NCBI GenBank assembly: GCA_947479455.1
Contig: CANJZE010000013.1
Coordinates: 1 to 64,000, forward strand
Direction of reading: 5' to 3'
DNA length: 64,000 nt
Source of the DNA: Bacteroidota bacterium
GTDB taxonomy: Bacteria; Bacteroidota; Bacteroidia; Chitinophagales; LD1
Part shown: piece by piece, positions 16,774-32,733 of the stretch
How the letters are laid out: every line of letters starts with the position of its first letter
How positions within the stretch are numbered: position 1 is the first letter of the stretch
Program-made: the position numbers and the translations under genes
The notes under the pieces: model-generated
Database searches by the model: none
Told to the model about the DNA's origin: nothing
The model's input: only the letters and a program-made list of their open reading frames with translations

Positions 16774-19700
16774 TTACCGCATCAACGTAACTGAGCCTTT
16801 ACGTAATTCTTCGCGATGTCCGTCAAGGAATGTGAGTTTCATTTGCCAGATAAATACCGAAGGATTTTGCAGCACACCTTTGTAAGTTCCATCCCAACCA
16901 AAATTATGGTCTTGCGACTCAAAAACTTTTTCACCAATGCGATTGAAAATTTGAATATCGAGATAAGCGATGGTTTTAATGTTTCCAAACAAGCGGAACA
17001 CATCGTTGTTGCCATCGTTGTTTGGTGTAAACGCGTTAGGTACAAAAATGGAATAATCAGGAATTACTAAAACGGTTACGGTGTCAATAGCGATACAGCC
17101 TACATCATTTCTAATTTCAATTTGATAAAGCGTAGTTACATTAGGTGCCGAAACCGGATACACACAATCAATGCAGCTCAGCGTAGATGCAGGCGACCAA
17201 ATGCTCGTATAATTTCCAGCGTTACCCGTAAGTGTAAACCCAAGCGTGGTGCTTTCCCCAATATTAATGGTTGTCATTGGAGTGGCTTGCACACTAAAAT
17301 CATAGAGGTATGCCAACGAAAATGTTGAGCCAACGGTGCAATTATTTGCATCGCTAACGGTAACAGAATAATTTCCAGGAGCCACATTCAGCAAATTACT
17401 TTGCACCGAGCCATTCGACCAATCGAAGTGATATGGCAGCGAGCCACCCGTTACATTTAATAAAATGTTTCCATCAAAATTATTGGTTTCACAAGTTGGA
17501 TTACTGAACGAAGAACTCAATGCCATGCCGGCTGGTTCTGTAACCAATGCTACTGTAGAAACAGTGCACGAATTATTATCGGTTACTGTTATAGAGTATG
17601 CACCAGCACCCAAATTATTTCGGTTGAGGTTAGCGTTTCCGTCATCCCACAAATAACTATACGGTGATGTTCCGCCCGTAACGGTAATAAGAATTACACC
17701 ATCAGTATATCCCAAGCAACTTGCATTCGAATGCATTTCCACAGCGGTAAGCACAGCTGGTTCTGAGATAACAACCGATAATGTAGCCGTGCAACTATTC
17801 AAATCATTCACTACTACCGAATAATTTCCCGCTGCAATATTTGTGCGGTCTTCGGTGGTAATTGCATCGTTCCATAAATAAAAATAGCCAGGTGTTCCAC
17901 CGTTGCTTGTAATATTAATTGAACCATCACTAGCTCCGTTGCAAAGAGCATTGGTGTGCGTTTCATTCACAGTAACTAGAGTAGGTTGCGAAACGAAAAT
18001 TGAAATAGAAGCTGTGCAAGAATTCAAATCATTCACCACCACGGAATAGTTTCCTGCGGCAATATTGTTTCTGTCTTCTGTAACTGCGGCATCGTTCCAC
18101 AAATAAGTATAAGGTGGGGTAGCAGCCGAAGCAGTAATATCGATTGAACCACTGGCAGCACCAAAGCACAAAGCAGCTAAATGTGTTTCAGTAACTACAA
18201 GTGCAGTTGGCTCCGAAATATTTAGAGTAATAGAAGCCGAACACAAATTCAAATCGCGTACCGTTACCGAATAATTTCCTGCTGCAATATTATTTCTGTC
18301 TTCGGTTGTTATACCATCGTTCCATAAATAAGTATAAGGCGGTGTAGCAGCCGTAGCTGTAACATCTATGGTGCCACTGCTTCCGCCATTGCATAAAGCA
18401 TTGGTATGGGTTTCGGTTACCACTAATGCCGAAGGCTGGTTGATGGTGACCGATAAAGTAATGATACACGTGTTCACATCTGTTGCAGTAACCGAATAAA
18501 CACCGGCTAAAAGATTTGTTCTATCCTGCGTTGCAATACCATCGTTCCATAGATAGGTAAACGGTGGTGCATTGCCCACGAGTGTAACATCAATAGTTCC
18601 GCTATTGCCCGCATTGCATGTTGCATCAGCATGTGTTTCAGAAATTACTAAGCCCGCCAAACTTGAAACTGTAGCAGAAAGAGAAATAGAGCAAGCATTG
18701 TTGTCGGTTGCGGTTATCGAATAATTTCCTACCGGAATATTTGTTCTGTCCTGAGTAATTACGCCATCGTTCCATAAATAAGTGTAAGGCAAAGTAGCTC
18801 CACTCACAGTTATGTCAATGCTTCCTGCATTCACCAATCCGCATGGCACATCCACATGTGTTTCAGAAATTGCAAGTGCGGTTGGTTCAGAAATATTTAC
18901 AGCGATTGCTGCAGTACACAATTGATTATCTGAAATAGTAACCGAATAATTTCCCGTGGGAATATTATTTCTGTCTTCAGAAACTACAGCATCGCTCCAT
19001 AAATAAGTATAAGGCGAAGTTCCTCCGTTTGCTGTTACATCAATAGAACCACTGCTTCCGCCATTGCACAAAACATTTGTATGTGTTTCTGTAAAAATTA
19101 AAACTGTAGGTTCTGAAATAATAGCTGCTGTTGTAGCAGTGCATCCTGCGTTATCAGTTACCGTAACCAAATAATTAGCAGCAGGAATATTGTTTCTGTC
19201 TTCGGTAAGTACCGCATCGTTCCATAAAAAAGTATATGGCGATTGTCCGCTGTTCGCAGTTAAATCTATGGCCCCAGTGTTCCCTCCATTGCAAGCAACA
19301 TCGGTCACAGCGGTAACAAGTATCATAGTAGGTATAACAGTTACTGTTCTGCTTGCTGTAGCGGTACAGTTATTTACATCGGTTACCGTAACACTATAAC
19401 TGAAAGTTCCTATTGGCGAAACAGTGATAGCTGCCGTTAAAGAAGCATCGCTCCATAAATAAGTAGTTCCTCCGCTTGCAGTTAAAGTAGCACTTGTTCC
19501 ATTGCAAATAGTGGATGTTGAAGGGTTAATTATCGCAGTTGGTAATTGGTTTACCGTTACAGTGCTACTGGTAGTTGCCGTACATAAATTTGCATCGGTC
19601 ACCGTAACATCATAAGTGGTGGTAGTGATTGGAGAAACAGAAATGGCTGCAGTAATTGCAGCATTACTCCACAAATAATTTGTTCCGCCACCAGCAGTTA

Positions 19701-22700
19701 TAGTTACGCTTGCACCGTTGCAAATGGCAATGGCCGCTGGATTAATAATTGGAATTGGAAGTGGATTTACAGTAACTGTTCTGCTGGTTGTACCTATGCA
19801 AGCATTGGCATCAGTCACTGTAACATCATAGGTAGTAGTTGCGATTGGCGAAACGGTAATTGTCGCAGTAATCGAAGCATCGCTCCACAAGTAAGAAGTT
19901 CCTCCGCTTGCTGTAAGTGTTGTACTTGCTCCATTACAAATGGCCACTACTGCAGGATTAATAACTGCTGTTGGAAGTGTATTTACAGTTACCGTTCTGA
20001 TAGCTGTGGCTGTGCAAGTATTTGCATCTGTTACGGTAACAGTATAAGAAGTTGTAATAACAGGTGAAACAGTAATTGCAGCAGTGTTACCCGCATTGCT
20101 CCATAAATAATTTGTGCCTCCACTTGCAGTGAGTGTAGCACTTGCTCCATTGCAAATGGCTACAACCGCAGGGTTTATTATGGCTGTTGGAAGTGAATTT
20201 ACTGTTACTGTTCTTGTAGCTGTAGCGGTACATGTATTAGCATCGGTTACTGTTACAGTATATGAACTTGTAGTAACTGGCGAAACCGAAATTGCTGCTG
20301 TGTTAGCCGCATTACTCCACAAATAACTTGTTCCACCACTTGCAGTTAATGTTGCACTAGCACCATTGCAAATGGCAACAACTGCAGGATTTATTATTGC
20401 TGTTGGAAGGGTATTTACGGTAACTGTTCTGCTCGTGTTTCCTGTGCATGCATTTGCATCTGTCACTGTTACATCATACGTGGTGGTAATAATTGGCGAA
20501 ACAGTAATTGCTGCTGTGTTTGCCGCGTTACTCCATAAATAAGAAGTGCCTCCGCTTGCTGTTAATGTTGTGCTTGCTCCATTGCAAATTGCAACTACAG
20601 CAGGATTTATAATTGCTGTTGGAAGTGTATTTACCGTTACTGTTCTTGTGGCCGTGGCAGTACATGTATTTACATCTGTAACAGTTACGGTGTATGAAGT
20701 TGTAATTGCAGGAGAAACAGTAATTGCCGCAGTGTTACCCGCATTGCTCCACAAATAACTAGTTCCTCCACTCGCTGTAAGCGTTGCACTTGCACCATTG
20801 CAAATAGCAACAACAGCAGGATTTATTACTGGTATTGGAAGTGGATTTACCGTTACTGTTCGTGTGGCTGTTGCAGTGCAAGTATTAGCATCTGTAACAG
20901 TAACCGTATAAGAAGTTGTAATAATTGGCGAAACAGAAATTGCTGCAGTGTTACCCGCATTGCTCCACAAATAAGAAGTGCCTCCACTTGCGGTGAGGGT
21001 GGCACTAGCTCCATTACAAATAGCTACTACAGCAGGATTAATAATTGCCGTTGGAAGTGAATTAACTGTAACTGTTCGCGACATACTTGCGGTACAAAAA
21101 TTAGCATCGGTTACTGTAACCGAATAGCTTGTTGTAAGAACAGGCGAAACCGTTACAGCCGCTGTATTAGCCAAATTACTCCAGGCATAAGTATTTCCTC
21201 CACTAGCAGTAAGCGTTGCACTTGCGCCATTGCAAATAGAAACTGTAACAGGCGCAATGGCAGGCACAGGCACTGCATTTACTACCACATTAGTTACATC
21301 TGTTGCTGTACAACCCGGACCGTAAGTAACGGTTACAGAATAATTTCCTGCCATAACTCCGGTAGCACCGGCAAGCGTAGGGTTTTGTGCGGTTGATGTA
21401 TAACCACCGGGGCCATTCCAACTATAACCTGTTCCACCATTCGAAGAAGTTAGCGCAATAGTTTGCCCCGCACAAAATGGTCCTGAATTAGCGGCTACCG
21501 CAGTGGCTGTAGCTACTCCGTTTACAGTAATTGAAACAGCAACCGAGCAACCGAGATTATCAGTAACCGTCAATGAATAATTTCCTGCTGCTAAACTTCC
21601 AATTGAATCTGTCCCATTCACATTGTTATGTGTAGCAATAACGGTTCCTACTGAATTTGCCCAAACATAATCCCACGGAGCCGAGCCTTGACCGGTGGCT
21701 GCTATTTCTCCATCATTTAAACCACACGAAGCATTAGTGGTAGTAATGATTGGTTGCGCGCAACAAGCAAGTGCTGCTAAAAAATTTACAACAGGGTCGG
21801 TACCGCAGCCATTGCTACTCCAAATACCCGATTCAGAATCTCCGAGTGTATTAATGCCAACTTGTAAACTAGCTCCCGGTGTGCAAGCACCTGGAGGTTG
21901 AGTAGTTATTTGCCAGCAAAAAGTTCTTGGACAGGTTAAGCCTACGCCTTGGTCACCAAAATTATTCCCCGGATTTCCGTCTATTACAGCAGGTACAGAT
22001 GGATTACCTGAACTTGTTTCAAAGAAAAATCCCGGACCATAAGTACCAAAAGGAGTGTGCGAACTGGTTACGCTATTATAAAATCCCCAAAATCCTCCCG
22101 GGGGCGTAGTTGCGCAGGCTGCGGGAATTGAAGTTGGTGCAAGGGTTGCCACATTCCAACCTGCGCCAAAATTTAAATCAATACCATGTAACCAGTTAAC
22201 TGATGTTTGATTGTAATTTGAAACCGTGAAGCAAAAATTTACGGTTTGGCCCGCAGCATAAGTTCCGTTTACCGGTGGTGGAGTTACTTGCAAATCTTGT
22301 GCAAGCAAACAAGTAGCACAATCAAGATTATTGCGAATGTTCAAAATAAAATCACCTACATCGGCAGCATTACCTCCCGAAATTTGCAGGTAATAAAAAT
22401 CTCCGGGTGTAGTGGGCGAAAAAGTAGCAGCTAAACTACCACCTGCACCGGTAAAACAACCTAATGGAAGTAAAGCGTTGCAATTATTTCCATTGTATAA
22501 ACTTATGTTTGGATTGTTAAGCGCATTAGCCAAACTGGTAATAGACATTGCCAACTGCGTTCCTGTAGCTTGAAAGCGATACCAAACATCGGTAGCGGGG
22601 ATAGCGCATCCAACTACCGCGTTATAGGGATTTTCGGCAATGGCTCCTACATTACTCATTCCAAATGAAGTTAGTGCTCCGGTGGAAATAGTAGCTCCTG

Positions 22701-23706
22701 CGGTACATGGAGCGGGAGTGGGTAGCGCTCCTAAGTTACATGCAGCGAAACATATATCGGGAATAGGAGAGAGGCATGCGTTGTTTGGAGGTGGAGGAGG
22801 TAGGGAGCTATCGAAAATGCATAATGAAAAGGTTCCGTTATTATCGTTGCCGTATTCCCAAAAACGTACATACATTGTAGCTCCCGGGGCCAATCCTGTC
22901 AAATTTAAACTAGGCATTAATCCATTAGCACTATTATCATCATCACATTGTATAAGCGTAAAAGTTCCATTACAAGCGGTAGCAGAGTATACCGCCATTC
23001 CACCATCGGTAATTACTCCAGTGTTACCATCAAGTGTAACATTGCCTGATGCCGGAACAACAAAACTAAACCACACATCGCCTCCTGAATAACTGGCACA
23101 GCCTGGTGCCGGTACACCTGCGGTTGCTGTAGCATTGGCATTGGTATATTGAGTGTATGCGCAAGAATTAGTCACCGTAACCGGTATAGCTGCACAAGGA
23201 TTATCGTTTGCAGGAGGAGTTGGGGGAGTAAAAGCCGTAAGGCAAATTCCAAAAGTTCCGTTTCCGTTATTTCCGTATTCCCAAAAACGAATGTAAAGTG
23301 TAGCCCCCGGTGTTTGCCCTGCAATGTTTATTAATGGCATCAAACCATTCGGGCTATTATCATCATTACAACTAATCAAACTAAAAGTTCCATTGCAGGC
23401 AGTTGCAGAATAAACAGCCATACCACCATCTGTAATTACTCCTTGTATAGCATCAATAGTTACTGCGCCCGAAGCCGGCACGGTGAACGTGAACCATACA
23501 TCACCTCCTGAATAACTGGCACAACCCGGTGCAGGAACACCTGCTGTAGCTGTGGCATTGGCATTGGTATAAGTAGCGTAGGTACAAGTAGCGCTAACAG
23601 GTAATGGAATAGCTGCACAAGGGTCATCATTTGCCGGAGCTTGAGCAAATGTTCCTATAGTGCCAAGCAGCATAGCTGTTGCTAATAATAAAATTCGAAT
23701 GTTCAT
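16774..23706 (-). CDS. Giant secreted repeat protein (Ig/PKD-like and SprB-like repeats) with gliding-motility-associated type B C-terminal domain
   Basis: 2310 aa; signal peptide; two ~135-aa N-terminal repeats; nine ~72-aa ICNGAS units; about nine ~79-aa SprB-like units; C-terminal [17 protein letters not shown]...[10 protein letters not shown]...GWDGTYKG. Confidence 0.93.
   Translation of the reverse strand: [2310 protein letters not shown]
17290..19330 (-). repeat. Tandem SprB-like repeats (~79 aa each, about nine units) inside the giant adhesin CDS
   Basis: Repeated [52 protein letters not shown] pattern. Confidence 0.9.
19330..21274 (-). repeat. Nine tandem ~216-bp (72-aa) Ig/PKD-like units inside the giant adhesin CDS
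   Basis: Unit boundaries (ggaagtg..ttta) recur near 19757, 19974, 20190, 20406, 20623, 20836 and 21052. Confidence 0.9.
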
Positions 23707-25403: not shown

Positions 25404-25464
25404 TTTTGTATTGACTGCAACTGCCGCTGCTTACTTGTTTCATCCCGCTTTCCTTAACGGGAGC
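25404..25464. repeat. REP-like element, right copy (inverted)
   Basis: Reverse complement AGCTCCCGTTAAGGAAAGCGGGATGAAACAAGTAAGCAGC..CAATACAAAA matches 24909..24957 apart from a short insertion. Confidence 0.8.
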
Positions 25465-25474
25465 TACTGGCTAC

Positions 25475-26719
25475 CTACTTCACTTTCTTCAACAGATAGT
25501 TCTCTACCATAAACACGGAAACATTTCGATTTTCATAGTAGTTCACCAGCTTGCCGTCTTTCGAATTTTTGCTAATGTCGAATTTATAACCGGTGCCGTT
25601 GAAGTGTTGAGTGGCTACATTGTTGATGAAATCTTTTCCATAATAGTTTAAGTTTTCAAGAATGAAGTTGAGCACATCAAAGCCAAGAAAGGAAAACTTC
25701 GAGGGCTCCTGACTGAAATTTGTTTTGAAGTTATTTTTGAAACTCAAGGTTTCGTTACGGGCAGAATCAAGATAGAATGCATCGGAAATTCGAGTAGAGA
25801 AATCGTTAACGTAATCTAATCGAAGAATATCGCCATTTAACCACGTTGGCATGCCGTAAACAATAATTCTCTTTGTTTTCAAATCGTCATGTAGCACGCG
25901 CAAGTTTCCATTCACGAAAGATTCTTCGAAAGAAGTGATGATCAAAATATTCGGCTTGTCGGTTTTTAGTTGTTCTACCGCAGATGTTTTCTTTCCATTC
26001 ACCAACATGGTTTTTGTGTTGAGCAAAGCAACGGTAAATTTTTGTGAAGCAGTTTTATTGAAAGCACGAAACAGCGAATCAAATCGCTGCGCTACACTCC
26101 AGCTTTTTTCTGCATCAGGAGTGTAAATAATAATGTTGCCACCGGCAAACGAATCAATAATAGAATTGAACAGAGCATCAACATGCGCATCAATGGTGGG
26201 CGAAAGTTTAAGGTGATAAGGATTATCGGCCGTTAAACTTTTAGAAGGAGAAAAGGGCTGAACGTTTATGATTTTATTCTGCTTACAATAGTCTGCAACC
26301 AACTTAGAACCAGAAACTGACATGGCTCCAATAATCACATCCGATTTTTTCAGTTCCTCTTTTTTCAAAAGTTCGGTGGTAACAGAATCGCTGTTATAGC
26401 AATCGTAAACTTTCAATTCAATTTTAAAACTATCGGTTGTTTCTCTTAATGCTTCAAGCGCGCCTTCATAAAAATCTAAAGCTATTACGGCATCTTCATT
26501 TAAGTGAATTCGGCTAGCGGTAAAAAAATCACGTGCGTTAGTAAAGCCATCTAATTTCTCAACAGTACTTTCTGTTTGAAAAGGAAGAATTAAACTAATG
26601 CGGTAAACGGAATCGGCTTGAGCAGAACAGATGAGAGACAATAGACAACAGACAACAGACAATGCAAGTTGACGGTTCGCGGTTCCCAGATAACAGTAAA
26701 AAAAAAACGTTTTTTTCAT
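25475..26719 (-). CDS. Exported periplasmic-binding / ABC-substrate-binding-like protein
   Basis: 414 aa; type 1 PBP-like fold features (YRISLILPF, VIIGAMSVSGSKLVADYCKQNKIINVQPFSPS); N-terminal signal peptide encoded by a heptamer array. Confidence 0.7.
   Translation of the reverse strand: MKKTFFFYCYLGTANRQLALSVVCCLLSLICSAQADSVYRISLILPFQTESTVEKLDGFTNARDFFTASRIHLNEDAVIALDFYEGALEALRETTDSFKIELKVYDCYNSDSVTTELLKKEELKKSDVIIGAMSVSGSKLVADYCKQNKIINVQPFSPSKSLTADNPYHLKLSPTIDAHVDALFNSIIDSFAGGNIIIYTPDAEKSWSVAQRFDSLFRAFNKTASQKFTVALLNTKTMLVNGKKTSAVEQLKTDKPNILIITSFEESFVNGNLRVLHDDLKTKRIIVYGMPTWLNGDILRLDYVNDFSTRISDAFYLDSARNETLSFKNNFKTNFSQEPSKFSFLGFDVLNFILENLNYYGKDFINNVATQHFNGTGYKFDISKNSKDGKLVNYYENRNVSVFMVENYLLKKVK
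26634..26696. repeat. Nine-unit heptamer array AGAGACA ATAGACA ACAGACA ACAGACA ATGCAAG TTGACGG TTCGCGG TTCCCAG ATAACAG
   Basis: Uninterrupted period-7 framing over 63 bp, within the 5' coding end of ORF 25475..26719. Confidence 0.85.
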
Positions 26720-26738
26720 TTTGTATTTGCCTTTAAAG

Positions 26739-26780
26739 TCCCCTTTAGGGATTTTGTTTCATCCCGCTTTTTTAGCGGGA
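26739..26780. repeat. Palindrome pair TCCCCTTTAGGGA and TCCCGCTttttTAGCGGGA, REP-like
   Basis: Contains GGGATTTTGTTTCATCCCGC, also present in split form at 25400..25447. Confidence 0.7.
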
Positions 26781-26786
26781 AGGGGT

Positions 26787-30017: not shown

Positions 30018-31649
30018 ATGGCTACAGGTTTTTTTAAAGTTCCCGCACCGCACAACGAACCGATTAAGCAATACGCACCAGGAAGCAAAGAAAGAGATGA
30101 ACTGAAAAAGAAAATTGCCGCAATGCGCAAAGAAGTGCGCGACATTCCGGTGTTTATTGGTGGCAAGGAAATTCGTGATGGCAAAAAGATTTCGCTGCAT
30201 CCGCCACACGACCATAAACATTTACTGGGGCATTATTATAAGAGCGAAAAGAAACACGTGCAACAGGCGGTTACCGCTGCTTTGGCTGCGCGTAAAAAAT
30301 GGGTGGCTTTAAGTTGGGAGCACCGCGCTTCTATATTTTTGAAAGCTGCAGAATTAATTGCAGGTCCTTATCGTGCTGAATTGAATGCGGCAACTATGTT
30401 GGGGCAATCGAAAAATGCTTATCAGGCAGAGATAGATTCGGCTTGCGAAATCATAGATTTTTTGCGCTTCAATGTGCAGTTTATGACCGAAATTTATTCG
30501 ATGCAGCCGCAAAGCAGCGCAGGTATCTGGAACCGCAGTGAGTGGAGACCGCTCGAAGGTTTTTTGTATGCGCTTACGCCTTTCAACTTTACGGCTATTG
30601 CAGGAAATCTTCCTTCAAGTTGCGCCATGATGGGCAATGTGGTGGTGTGGAAACCTTCGAACACCCAGGTGTATTCGGCTTATGTGTTGATGAAAATTTT
30701 TCGCGAAGCGGGAGTGCCCGATGGCGTAATTAATTTGATTTACCCGAGCGGACCCGATGCGGCTGATGTAATTTTTTCGCATCGCGATTTTGCGGGTATT
30801 CATTTCACGGGTTCAACCGAAGTGTTTCAAAACATCTGGAAAAATATTGGCGACCATATTCATCTCTATAAAACATATCCTCGTATTGTGGGCGAAACAG
30901 GAGGTAAGGATTTCATCCTCGCTCACAAGAGTGCCGATGCCAAAGCGGTGGCTACGGCTATTTCAAGGGGAGCGTTTGAATATCAGGGGCAGAAATGTTC
31001 GGCTGCATCGCGCGCTTATGTGCCTGCTAATATCTGGAACGCAGTGAAGAAACAAGTGCTCGAAGATTTGGCAAGCATGAAGATGGGCGGCACCGAAGAC
31101 TTCGGTAATTTTATAAATGCGGTGATTGACGAAAAGAGTTTCGATAAACTGGCGGCATACATAGCGCAGGCAAAGAAAGATAAGGATGCAAAAATTATTG
31201 CGGGCGGCAAATGCGATAAAACCAAGGGCTATTTTATTGAGCCGACTATTATTCAAACTACGAACCCTAACTACGCAACCATGTGTGAGGAGTTGTTTGG
31301 ACCGGTGCTTACAGTTTATGTGTATGAAGAGGATAAGTTTGAAGAGATTTTGAAAACGGTGGACAGCACTTCTATTTATGCGCTTACGGGTTCTATTTTG
31401 GCGCAGGACAGATATGCCATTGAAAAAGCCACTCAAACTTTACAGAACGCTGCGGGTAATTTTTACATTAACGATAAACCGACCGGTGCGGTGGTGGGGC
31501 AGCAGCCGTTTGGCGGCAGCCGCGGCTCGGGCACTAACGACAAGGCGGGAAGTATGATTAACCTGCTGCGCTGGGTTTCGCCACGCACTATTAAAGAAAC
31601 GTTTGTTTCACCGGTTGATTACCGCTATCCTTTTTTAGCGAAGGATTAA
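30018..31649 (+). CDS. pruA: L-glutamate gamma-semialdehyde dehydrogenase
   Basis: 543 aa; ALDH motifs IVGETGGKDFILAH, FEYQGQKCSAASRAYVP, PFGGSRGSGTNDKAG. Confidence 0.95.
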   Translation: MATGFFKVPAPHNEPIKQYAPGSKERDELKKKIAAMRKEVRDIPVFIGGKEIRDGKKISLHPPHDHKHLLGHYYKSEKKHVQQAVTAALAARKKWVALSWEHRASIFLKAAELIAGPYRAELNAATMLGQSKNAYQAEIDSACEIIDFLRFNVQFMTEIYSMQPQSSAGIWNRSEWRPLEGFLYALTPFNFTAIAGNLPSSCAMMGNVVVWKPSNTQVYSAYVLMKIFREAGVPDGVINLIYPSGPDAADVIFSHRDFAGIHFTGSTEVFQNIWKNIGDHIHLYKTYPRIVGETGGKDFILAHKSADAKAVATAISRGAFEYQGQKCSAASRAYVPANIWNAVKKQVLEDLASMKMGGTEDFGNFINAVIDEKSFDKLAAYIAQAKKDKDAKIIAGGKCDKTKGYFIEPTIIQTTNPNYATMCEELFGPVLTVYVYEEDKFEEILKTVDSTSIYALTGSILAQDRYAIEKATQTLQNAAGNFYINDKPTGAVVGQQPFGGSRGSGTNDKAGSMINLLRWVSPRTIKETFVSPVDYRYPFLAKD

Positions 31650-32733
31650 GATACTCAATCATCAACTCTGCCGCGCGTTTAGATGCACCTGCGTTACCTA
31701 ATTTTTGGCGAAGCAATTCATAGTCGTTTAAAATGCGCTGGCGCTCTTCGCCTTCGGTAATTTTTTTGAGTTCAGCCACTAAGCGGTTTTTGTTTACCTC
31801 GGTTTGAATCAATTCTTCCACCACGCGTTTGCCGCAAATGAGGTTGACAATGCAAATAAAACCAATGCTTTTATCAATAAGCGCGTTGATGATAAAGTAA
31901 GAGATAGGGCTGCCTTTGTAGCAAACAACTTCGGGTATATTATGCAAAGCCGTTTCGAGGGTAGCGGTGCCTGAGGTTACTATTGCTGCTTTCGATTTCC
32001 TGAGCACGCCATAGGTATCATCCATTATCAGTTCCACATTTTTATTGCCAGTGATGTTGCGATAAAACGCTTCACCAATACCGCTCATGCCCGTAACTAT
32101 GAATTTGTATTGCGGAAATTCATCCACCACTTTTAAATATTCGGGAAGCAGATAGGAGATTTCCTGTTTGCGGCTGCCGGGAACTAATGCAATGATGTTC
32201 GGCTGTTCATTTCGTATTTCGTAATTCGTATTTCGTAATTCATCAAGCAAGGGGTGTCCCACATAATCCACCTGCACTCCGTTCTTTTCATAAAAATCTT
32301 TTTCGAAAGGAAAGATGACAAACATGCGGTCAACATACTGTTTCACTTTTTTCACTCTTCCTTTTTTCCATGCCCAAAGTTGTGGCGAGATGAAGTAGAA
32401 GATTTTGAGGTTATGCTTTTTCAAAAACTCGAACAGGCGGAAATTAAAGCCGGGGTAGTCAATCAATATAACCACATCGGGTTGGTAAGCCAGTATATCT
32501 TTTTTGCAAAACGAAATGTTTCCGAGAATAGTGGGAAGGTGTTTTACCACTTCAAAAAATCCCATGAAAGCCAGGTCGTTGATATGCTTCACCACCACGC
32601 CACCGGCAGCCTGCATTTTATCTCCGCCCCAGCAGCGCACATCGGCATCGGCATCCTGCGCTTTCAACTCCTTGATAAGGTTAGCACCGTGTAAATCTCC
32701 GCTTGCTTCGCCTGCTATGATGTAATATTTCAT
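31591..32733 (-). CDS. lpxB: Lipid-A-disaccharide synthase
   Basis: 380 aa; YIIAGEASGDLHGANLI, VILIDYPGFNFRL, YVGHPLLDEL, PGSRKQEI. Confidence 0.95.
   Translation of the reverse strand: MKYYIIAGEASGDLHGANLIKELKAQDADADVRCWGGDKMQAAGGVVVKHINDLAFMGFFEVVKHLPTILGNISFCKKDILAYQPDVVILIDYPGFNFRLFEFLKKHNLKIFYFISPQLWAWKKGRVKKVKQYVDRMFVIFPFEKDFYEKNGVQVDYVGHPLLDELRNTNYEIRNEQPNIIALVPGSRKQEISYLLPEYLKVVDEFPQYKFIVTGMSGIGEAFYRNITGNKNVELIMDDTYGVLRKSKAAIVTSGTATLETALHNIPEVVCYKGSPISYFIINALIDKSIGFICIVNLICGKRVVEELIQTEVNKNRLVAELKKITEGEERQRILNDYELLRQKLGNAGASKRAAELMIEYLNPSLKKDSGNQPVKQTFL
32206..32243. repeat. Heptamer array TTCAT TTCGTAT TTCGTAA TTCGTAT TTCGTAA TTCAT inside lpxB
   Basis: Period-7 framing, translated as LRNTNYEIRNE. 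Confidence 0.88.

Follow-up and report, generated by a model that had tools for sequence, protein, structure and literature searches.

The question raised by this locus is how a signal peptide can be encoded by a simple tandem repeat of seven nucleotides. The locus lies in a window of 64 kb (the whole stretch of DNA that was analyzed) from the genome designated G000; other G-numbers denote the genomes to which it was compared. ORF 25475-26719 (minus strand) encodes a protein of 414 amino acids beginning with MKKTFFFYCYLGTANRQLALSVVCCLLSLICSAQADSV, is periplasmic-binding-protein-like based on a match to Peripla_BP_6 (PF13458; E value 2.7e-8, 34.3 bits vs. a curated cut-off of 31.7) and was present in 18/18 genomes of the genus. 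By inspection and without the use of SignalP, its N-terminus fits the Sec type I pattern (MKK...NRQ / LALSVVCCLLSLI / cleavage between CSA and Q), with a positive n-region, a hydrophobic core and a small residue at each of positions -3 and -1, and it is followed by a conserved mature domain. The signal peptide was assigned to residues 1-35 (26615-26719, minus strand) from the sequence and from the orthologous signal peptides that precede a conserved mature start, with cleavage inferred to be likely between CSA and Q or between AQA and D. Its hydrophobic h-region spans residues L18-I30 (26630-26668, minus strand; best 10-mer mean Kyte-Doolittle 3.1). Export of the binding protein by the Sec pathway is inferred, as no expression, proteomic or SignalP data are at hand. 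Small palindromic repeats were noted at 25441-25466 and 26733-26785 (GTTTCATCCCGC..GCGGGA and CCCCTAAAGGGGACTTT) and recur in intergenic DNA.

The signal-peptide coding region includes an array at 26634-26696, which an earlier note had described as nine consecutive 7-mers. These were found, four of them well preserved and about five decayed. They encode both the n- and h-regions of the export signal; the note had assigned them to its N-terminal hydrophobic core. The core (26636-26662, plus strand; AGACAAT AGACAAC AGACAAC AGACAA, read as TTGTCTR on the minus strand) encodes the h-region LSVVCCLLS, was detected by TRF as 3.9 copies of AGACAAC (score 47), and had 19/20 matches at lag 7. The degenerate part (26663-26696, plus strand; GCAAGTT GACGGTT CGCGGTT CCCAGAT AACAG) encodes the n-region YLGTANRQ and matched at 17/27 positions at lag 7, with no more than 9 matches at any other lag from 4 to 15 (shuffle p < 1e-5). 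Over the entire array, identity at lag 7 was 38/56 and that at other short lags 0.21-0.33; no period other than 7 was apparent, and no 63-mer in the 64 kb window had a higher lag-7 identity. The tandem units at this position exceed chance.

The unit itself has unusual coding properties. Since 7 and 3 share no common factor, a heptamer without stops encodes one periodic peptide whatever the frame, and TTGTCTG was confirmed to give the cyclic heptapeptide LSVVCCL in all three; no specific frame is required, and an array can be entered in any of them. Frame-invariance does not protect the gene, however, as gain or loss of a unit puts the start codon and the mature domain out of phase. The complementary strand had been claimed to encode the hydrophilic QTTDNRQ without stops, which is correct for TTGTCTG but not for TTGTCTA, the complement of which (TAGACAA) carries a TAG every 21 nt; thus, TTGTCTG alone of the two is stop-free on both strands. 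A given strand is free of stops in 1608 of the 2340 cyclic heptamers, and just 47 have a mean Kyte-Doolittle value of at least 2.3. By this measure TTGTCTG ranks 13th and TTGTCTA 37th of the 1608.

Alignment of orthologues, run as a check of the idea that the mature domain is kept while the signal peptide is replaced, demonstrated such replacement. Identity to the window gene in the signal peptide and mature part, respectively, was 94 and 99% for G015, 47 and 93% for G004, 40 and 70% for G017, 35 and 66% for G010, and 42 and 67% for G001. Where the N-terminus was intact, every orthologue examined had a signal peptide preceding the same mature start, and in close species these signal peptides were mosaics of different heptamers: an ACGAAAT n-region (MKYEVRNTKYEIKN) with a TTGTCTA h-region in G004, TTCAATC/T (LLQSSIFNFQSSI) then TTGTCTG in G017, TTGTCTA/TTGCCTA/TTACCTA units in G001, and GCCAACT units in G016. 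Remote members of the genus had ordinary signal peptides (e.g., MKKIAVILLMLTGVSLQAQ), and a tree built from the mature part placed the array-bearing genomes in a single clade, to which G010 also belongs (support 93/98). The outcomes that would have refuted the proposal were not encountered, as the signal peptides of distant genus members were unrelated and those of the intact orthologues all stood ahead of the shared mature start. The named relatives are Bacteroidetes MAGs, of which one comes from Lac Pavin. As a separate observation, G000 and G015 share about 99% DNA identity in the window gene, yet another locus common to these two genomes (L005/L039) differs clearly in its signal peptide, which could reflect local recombination or transfer.

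TTGTCTR arrays were also counted genome-wide, with genes taken as the longest ORF and signal peptides called by a simple hydrophobicity rule. Two intact units were required, such that decayed arrays were missed. In G000, TTGTCTR doublets formed 18 arrays, with 13 in the sense orientation in signal peptides, 3 antisense in coding sequence and 2 intergenic. TTGTCTR thus lacks the strong non-coding bias described for the heptamers of Xanthomonas and Nostoc, although the pooled heptamers show it (see below). When grouped by orthology across the genus, sense arrays were found in about 25 independent gene families, all of them in signal peptides of either type I (CSAQ, SFAQ, CFSQ) or lipoprotein type (FSSC). 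By contrast, antisense arrays (TTDNRQ) occurred in about 21 families and in none of these in a signal-peptide h-region (Fisher p 1.4e-13 vs. sense); they were located in loops, at chain ends, in signal-peptide n-regions and in linkers, such as the one that joins the domains of an E2-like acyltransferase. The numbers of families were obtained by visual grouping of N-termini and ORF calls and include some paralogues. The recurrence and the sorting by strand are observed directly. Proteins with sense arrays included PorP/SprF, Por_Secre_tail T9SS cargo, Peptidase_M23, Lnb_N and GDSL lipase, all of which have to be exported to function, and this speaks in favour of the domesticated-array reading given below.

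Most signal peptides of the genome are ordinary, and only a few per cent are built from heptamers. Period-7 signal peptides amounted to 4.5% in the genome vs. 1.9% in control genomes at a score of at least 8 and to 2.5% vs. 1.0% at a score of at least 10, a small excess. Decayed arrays do not account for the majority of the signal peptides in the genome either, as the mean lag-7 identity in signal-peptide regions (0.288) was not above that at neighbouring lags. A phylum-wide TTGTCTR habit was likewise rejected, as any match was found in only 31/396 genomes and mostly as a single one. Two individual loci are also of note. In L006 (G000:C8:35544) a signal peptide made of heptamers (LSIVLFHPAFLRGNGLSSVAQ) contains an in-frame copy of the palindromic repeat, which the G004 orthologue L119 lacks. 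A locus in another family of the same order (L023, G047:C5:3398-3516) has a long, mixed TTGCCTA/TTGTCTA array of more than 10 units (LLPIAYCLLPIVYCL).

The heptamers are not restricted to TTGTCTR. An unbiased census of 864 kb of stretches of G000 revealed 51 arrays of period 7. Periods 8 and 9 yielded 11 and 6 arrays, respectively, and each other period within 4 to 13 gave 0-2; no such arrays were found in a Markov-3 null sequence. The genus relatives G007 and G009 had 3 period-7 arrays in 400 kb (7.5/Mb), compared to 59/Mb in the G000 census. This observed excess of period 7, which includes many unit types, is clade-specific and a broader cause behind the signal-peptide arrays. Loss of MutS was rejected as the cause, as MutS_I was detected in G000 and in 17/18 genomes of the genus.

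The census also bears on the strongest rival explanation, that of tolerance only, in which arrays arise everywhere and a hydrophobic array is harmless in the weakly constrained signal peptide without the heptamer being favoured there. Signal peptides generally evolve fast, and heptamers of all kinds were densest in intergenic DNA (477/Mb, vs. 279/Mb in signal-peptide regions, 35/Mb in other N-termini and 33/Mb in other coding sequence) and were also found in tolerant linkers. Tolerance contributes, given that the density of the pooled heptamers is higher in intergenic DNA than in signal peptides. At most equality of the two is predicted for TTGTCTR by tolerance, however, unless hydrophobic selection slows the decay of an array after it lands, and the observed distribution was different: the 13 signal-peptide arrays of G000 fell in about 125 kb and the 2 intergenic arrays in about 338 kb, a 2.7-fold larger space (p 2e-6), for a density per base about 17 times higher in signal peptides. 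Taken as a class, then, heptamers are biased towards DNA under weak constraint, and the bias of TTGTCTR in particular is towards signal peptides. We consider it rather unlikely that tolerance alone accounts for these results, though it cannot be set aside. The suggestion that the array is pre-adapted to become a signal peptide stands only in part: it is supported by the hydrophobicity rank and the excess over intergenic DNA, but selection was not separated from retention after a tolerated landing.

A second locus in the window provides information on how the units change. ORF 31591-32733, identified as LpxB (Pfam E value 2e-86), was found by array scan and orthologue comparison to have a coding heptamer array of GAAATAC/GAATTAC in a loop (32209-32241, minus strand). 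Across the array-bearing clade this loop, from GHPLLDE to ALVPGSR with the flanks included, is 29-31 residues long and holds a different heptamer array in each of G000, G015, G004, G001, G016 and G017. In G010 the heptamers are degenerate, and in other members of the genus the loop is not evidently heptameric. In addition, pure arrays of TTGTCTA vs. TTGTCTG numbered 15 vs. 2 in G000 and 0 vs. 10 in G001 (p 8e-6), and this genome-wide species bias at the R position suggests that loci are homogenised with one another or that mutation is biased differently in each species. From the loop of nearly constant length with changing units and the species-biased variant, we infer that units are converted in concert with almost no change in length, possibly through template switching. 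Elsewhere in the window, a giant secreted repeat protein of 2310 amino acids (16774-23706) was noted, which contains a tandem repeat of 216 bp (19340-21244) and ends in a C-terminus that looks to be of gliding/T9SS type.

The LpxB loop also weighs against the arrays being phase-variable contingency loci, in which gain or loss of a unit would turn the gene off. A change of seven bases does shift the frame, and N-terminal simple repeats are tied to phase variation in the literature (Lin and Kussell, as cited in PMC4692102). Copy numbers are low (2-5), however, the frame was intact in all orthologues seen (population reads were not available), and a similar array resides in lpxB, a gene that is normally essential, with loop length nearly constant; we regard phase variation as very improbable. 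Little more can be said for a function of the array at the level of DNA, which finds a parallel in Beggiatoaceae, where TAACTGA heptamers that directly precede start codons were proposed as regulator-binding sites (PMC4679880). The units at the same site are wholly different between species, and a DNA site would have no need of the strand sorting seen here, which tracks protein topology; we give this explanation scant credence. The last alternatives, that the array reflects chance in the codon usage of a signal peptide rich in leucine and valine or is an artefact of metagenome assembly, are strongly disfavoured already and can practically be dismissed: the isolated two-unit matches in unrelated genomes of the phylum (31/396), some in ordinary coding or transmembrane segments, are what such sources might offer, but the Markov null was free of arrays, the window gene and its array were found again at 99% identity in a MAG from Lac Pavin, related orthologues are present in two further MAGs, and many genomes have ortholog-specific arrays.

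Taken together, we hold with good confidence that the signal peptide of the binding protein is a domesticated heptanucleotide array, one of those made by a process of unknown nature in this clade and sorted by selection at the protein level. According to this model, the process would both generate and homogenise tandem 7-base arrays of many units in a clade of Bacteroidetes, with slippage or template switching inferred as the source, and the arrays would land or grow chiefly where constraint on the DNA is weak. Selection, which is likewise inferred, would then sort the arrays by topology, with sense TTGTCTR retained as h-regions. As TTGTCTG/A are among the most hydrophobic heptamers possible, their sense reading is predicted to yield a Sec h-region, to which a few changes may add a cleavage site or lipobox, and hydrophilic cationic heptamers, the complement of TTGTCTG/A included, may become n-regions or soluble linkers. 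Heptamer arrays would repeatedly have become export signals because TTGTCTG/A gives the same greasy peptide in each frame. Whether a length-neutral conversion of 7-base units operates genome-wide, continually seeding and homogenising arrays and so supplying new signal peptides (with TTGTCTR h-regions and cationic n-regions) and linkers, is a more tentative matter. It draws support from the LpxB loop and the species-biased unit variant, but we lean against it at present; if true, it would be an observable path from a simple repeat to a functional part of a protein. The domesticated array would explain one way for the turnover of signal peptides to outpace that of the exported proteins, and it suggests that a specific process produces period-7 arrays in a clade of freshwater Bacteroidetes. 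The clade offers a natural and replicated system in which meaningless tandem DNA could be followed as it becomes a working protein module.

The idea of coding sequence built from oligomeric repeats is reportedly that of Ohno, as a theory of primordial genes. Like his repeats, the units described here have a length that is not a multiple of three and give one periodic peptide in all frames. Unlike that theory, the arrays are present-day ones in functional export signals and can be compared between orthologues, and Ohno's frame-independent repeat is thereby made testable in living genes.

A search of the literature, restricted to open-access papers, found no direct report of heptamer arrays as signal peptides across many genes. 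Heptameric repeats are known in bacteria, including the STRR of Calothrix and GGGAATC of Xanthomonas and Nostoc (PMC4692102) and TAACTGA of Beggiatoaceae, Cyanobacteria and Bacteroidetes (PMC4679880). In the latter, MacGregor describes that reverse TAACTGA repeats encode one peptide (LSVISYQ) and persist at protein peripheries. Similarly to these, the arrays of this clade consist of tandem 7-base units in 2 to several copies and are dispersed, rich in intergenic DNA and restricted to a lineage. They differ from the Calothrix, Xanthomonas, Nostoc and Beggiatoaceae heptamers in that many units coexist. They also differ in that the hydrophobic unit is concentrated in the sense orientation in signal peptides and its hydrophilic complement in linkers, which PMC4692102 and PMC4679880, as far as they were read, do not describe. 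A repeat-derived signal peptide has been described by Delihas (2007) for RU-2 in YPO1552 of Y. pestis, among RU/ERIC-like small mobile sequences (PMC2759123). RU-2 is a 168-bp MITE-like element that provides a signal peptide in one or few cases, whereas the arrays described here are built from a 7-base tandem unit that is functional in every frame and found in about 25 gene families.
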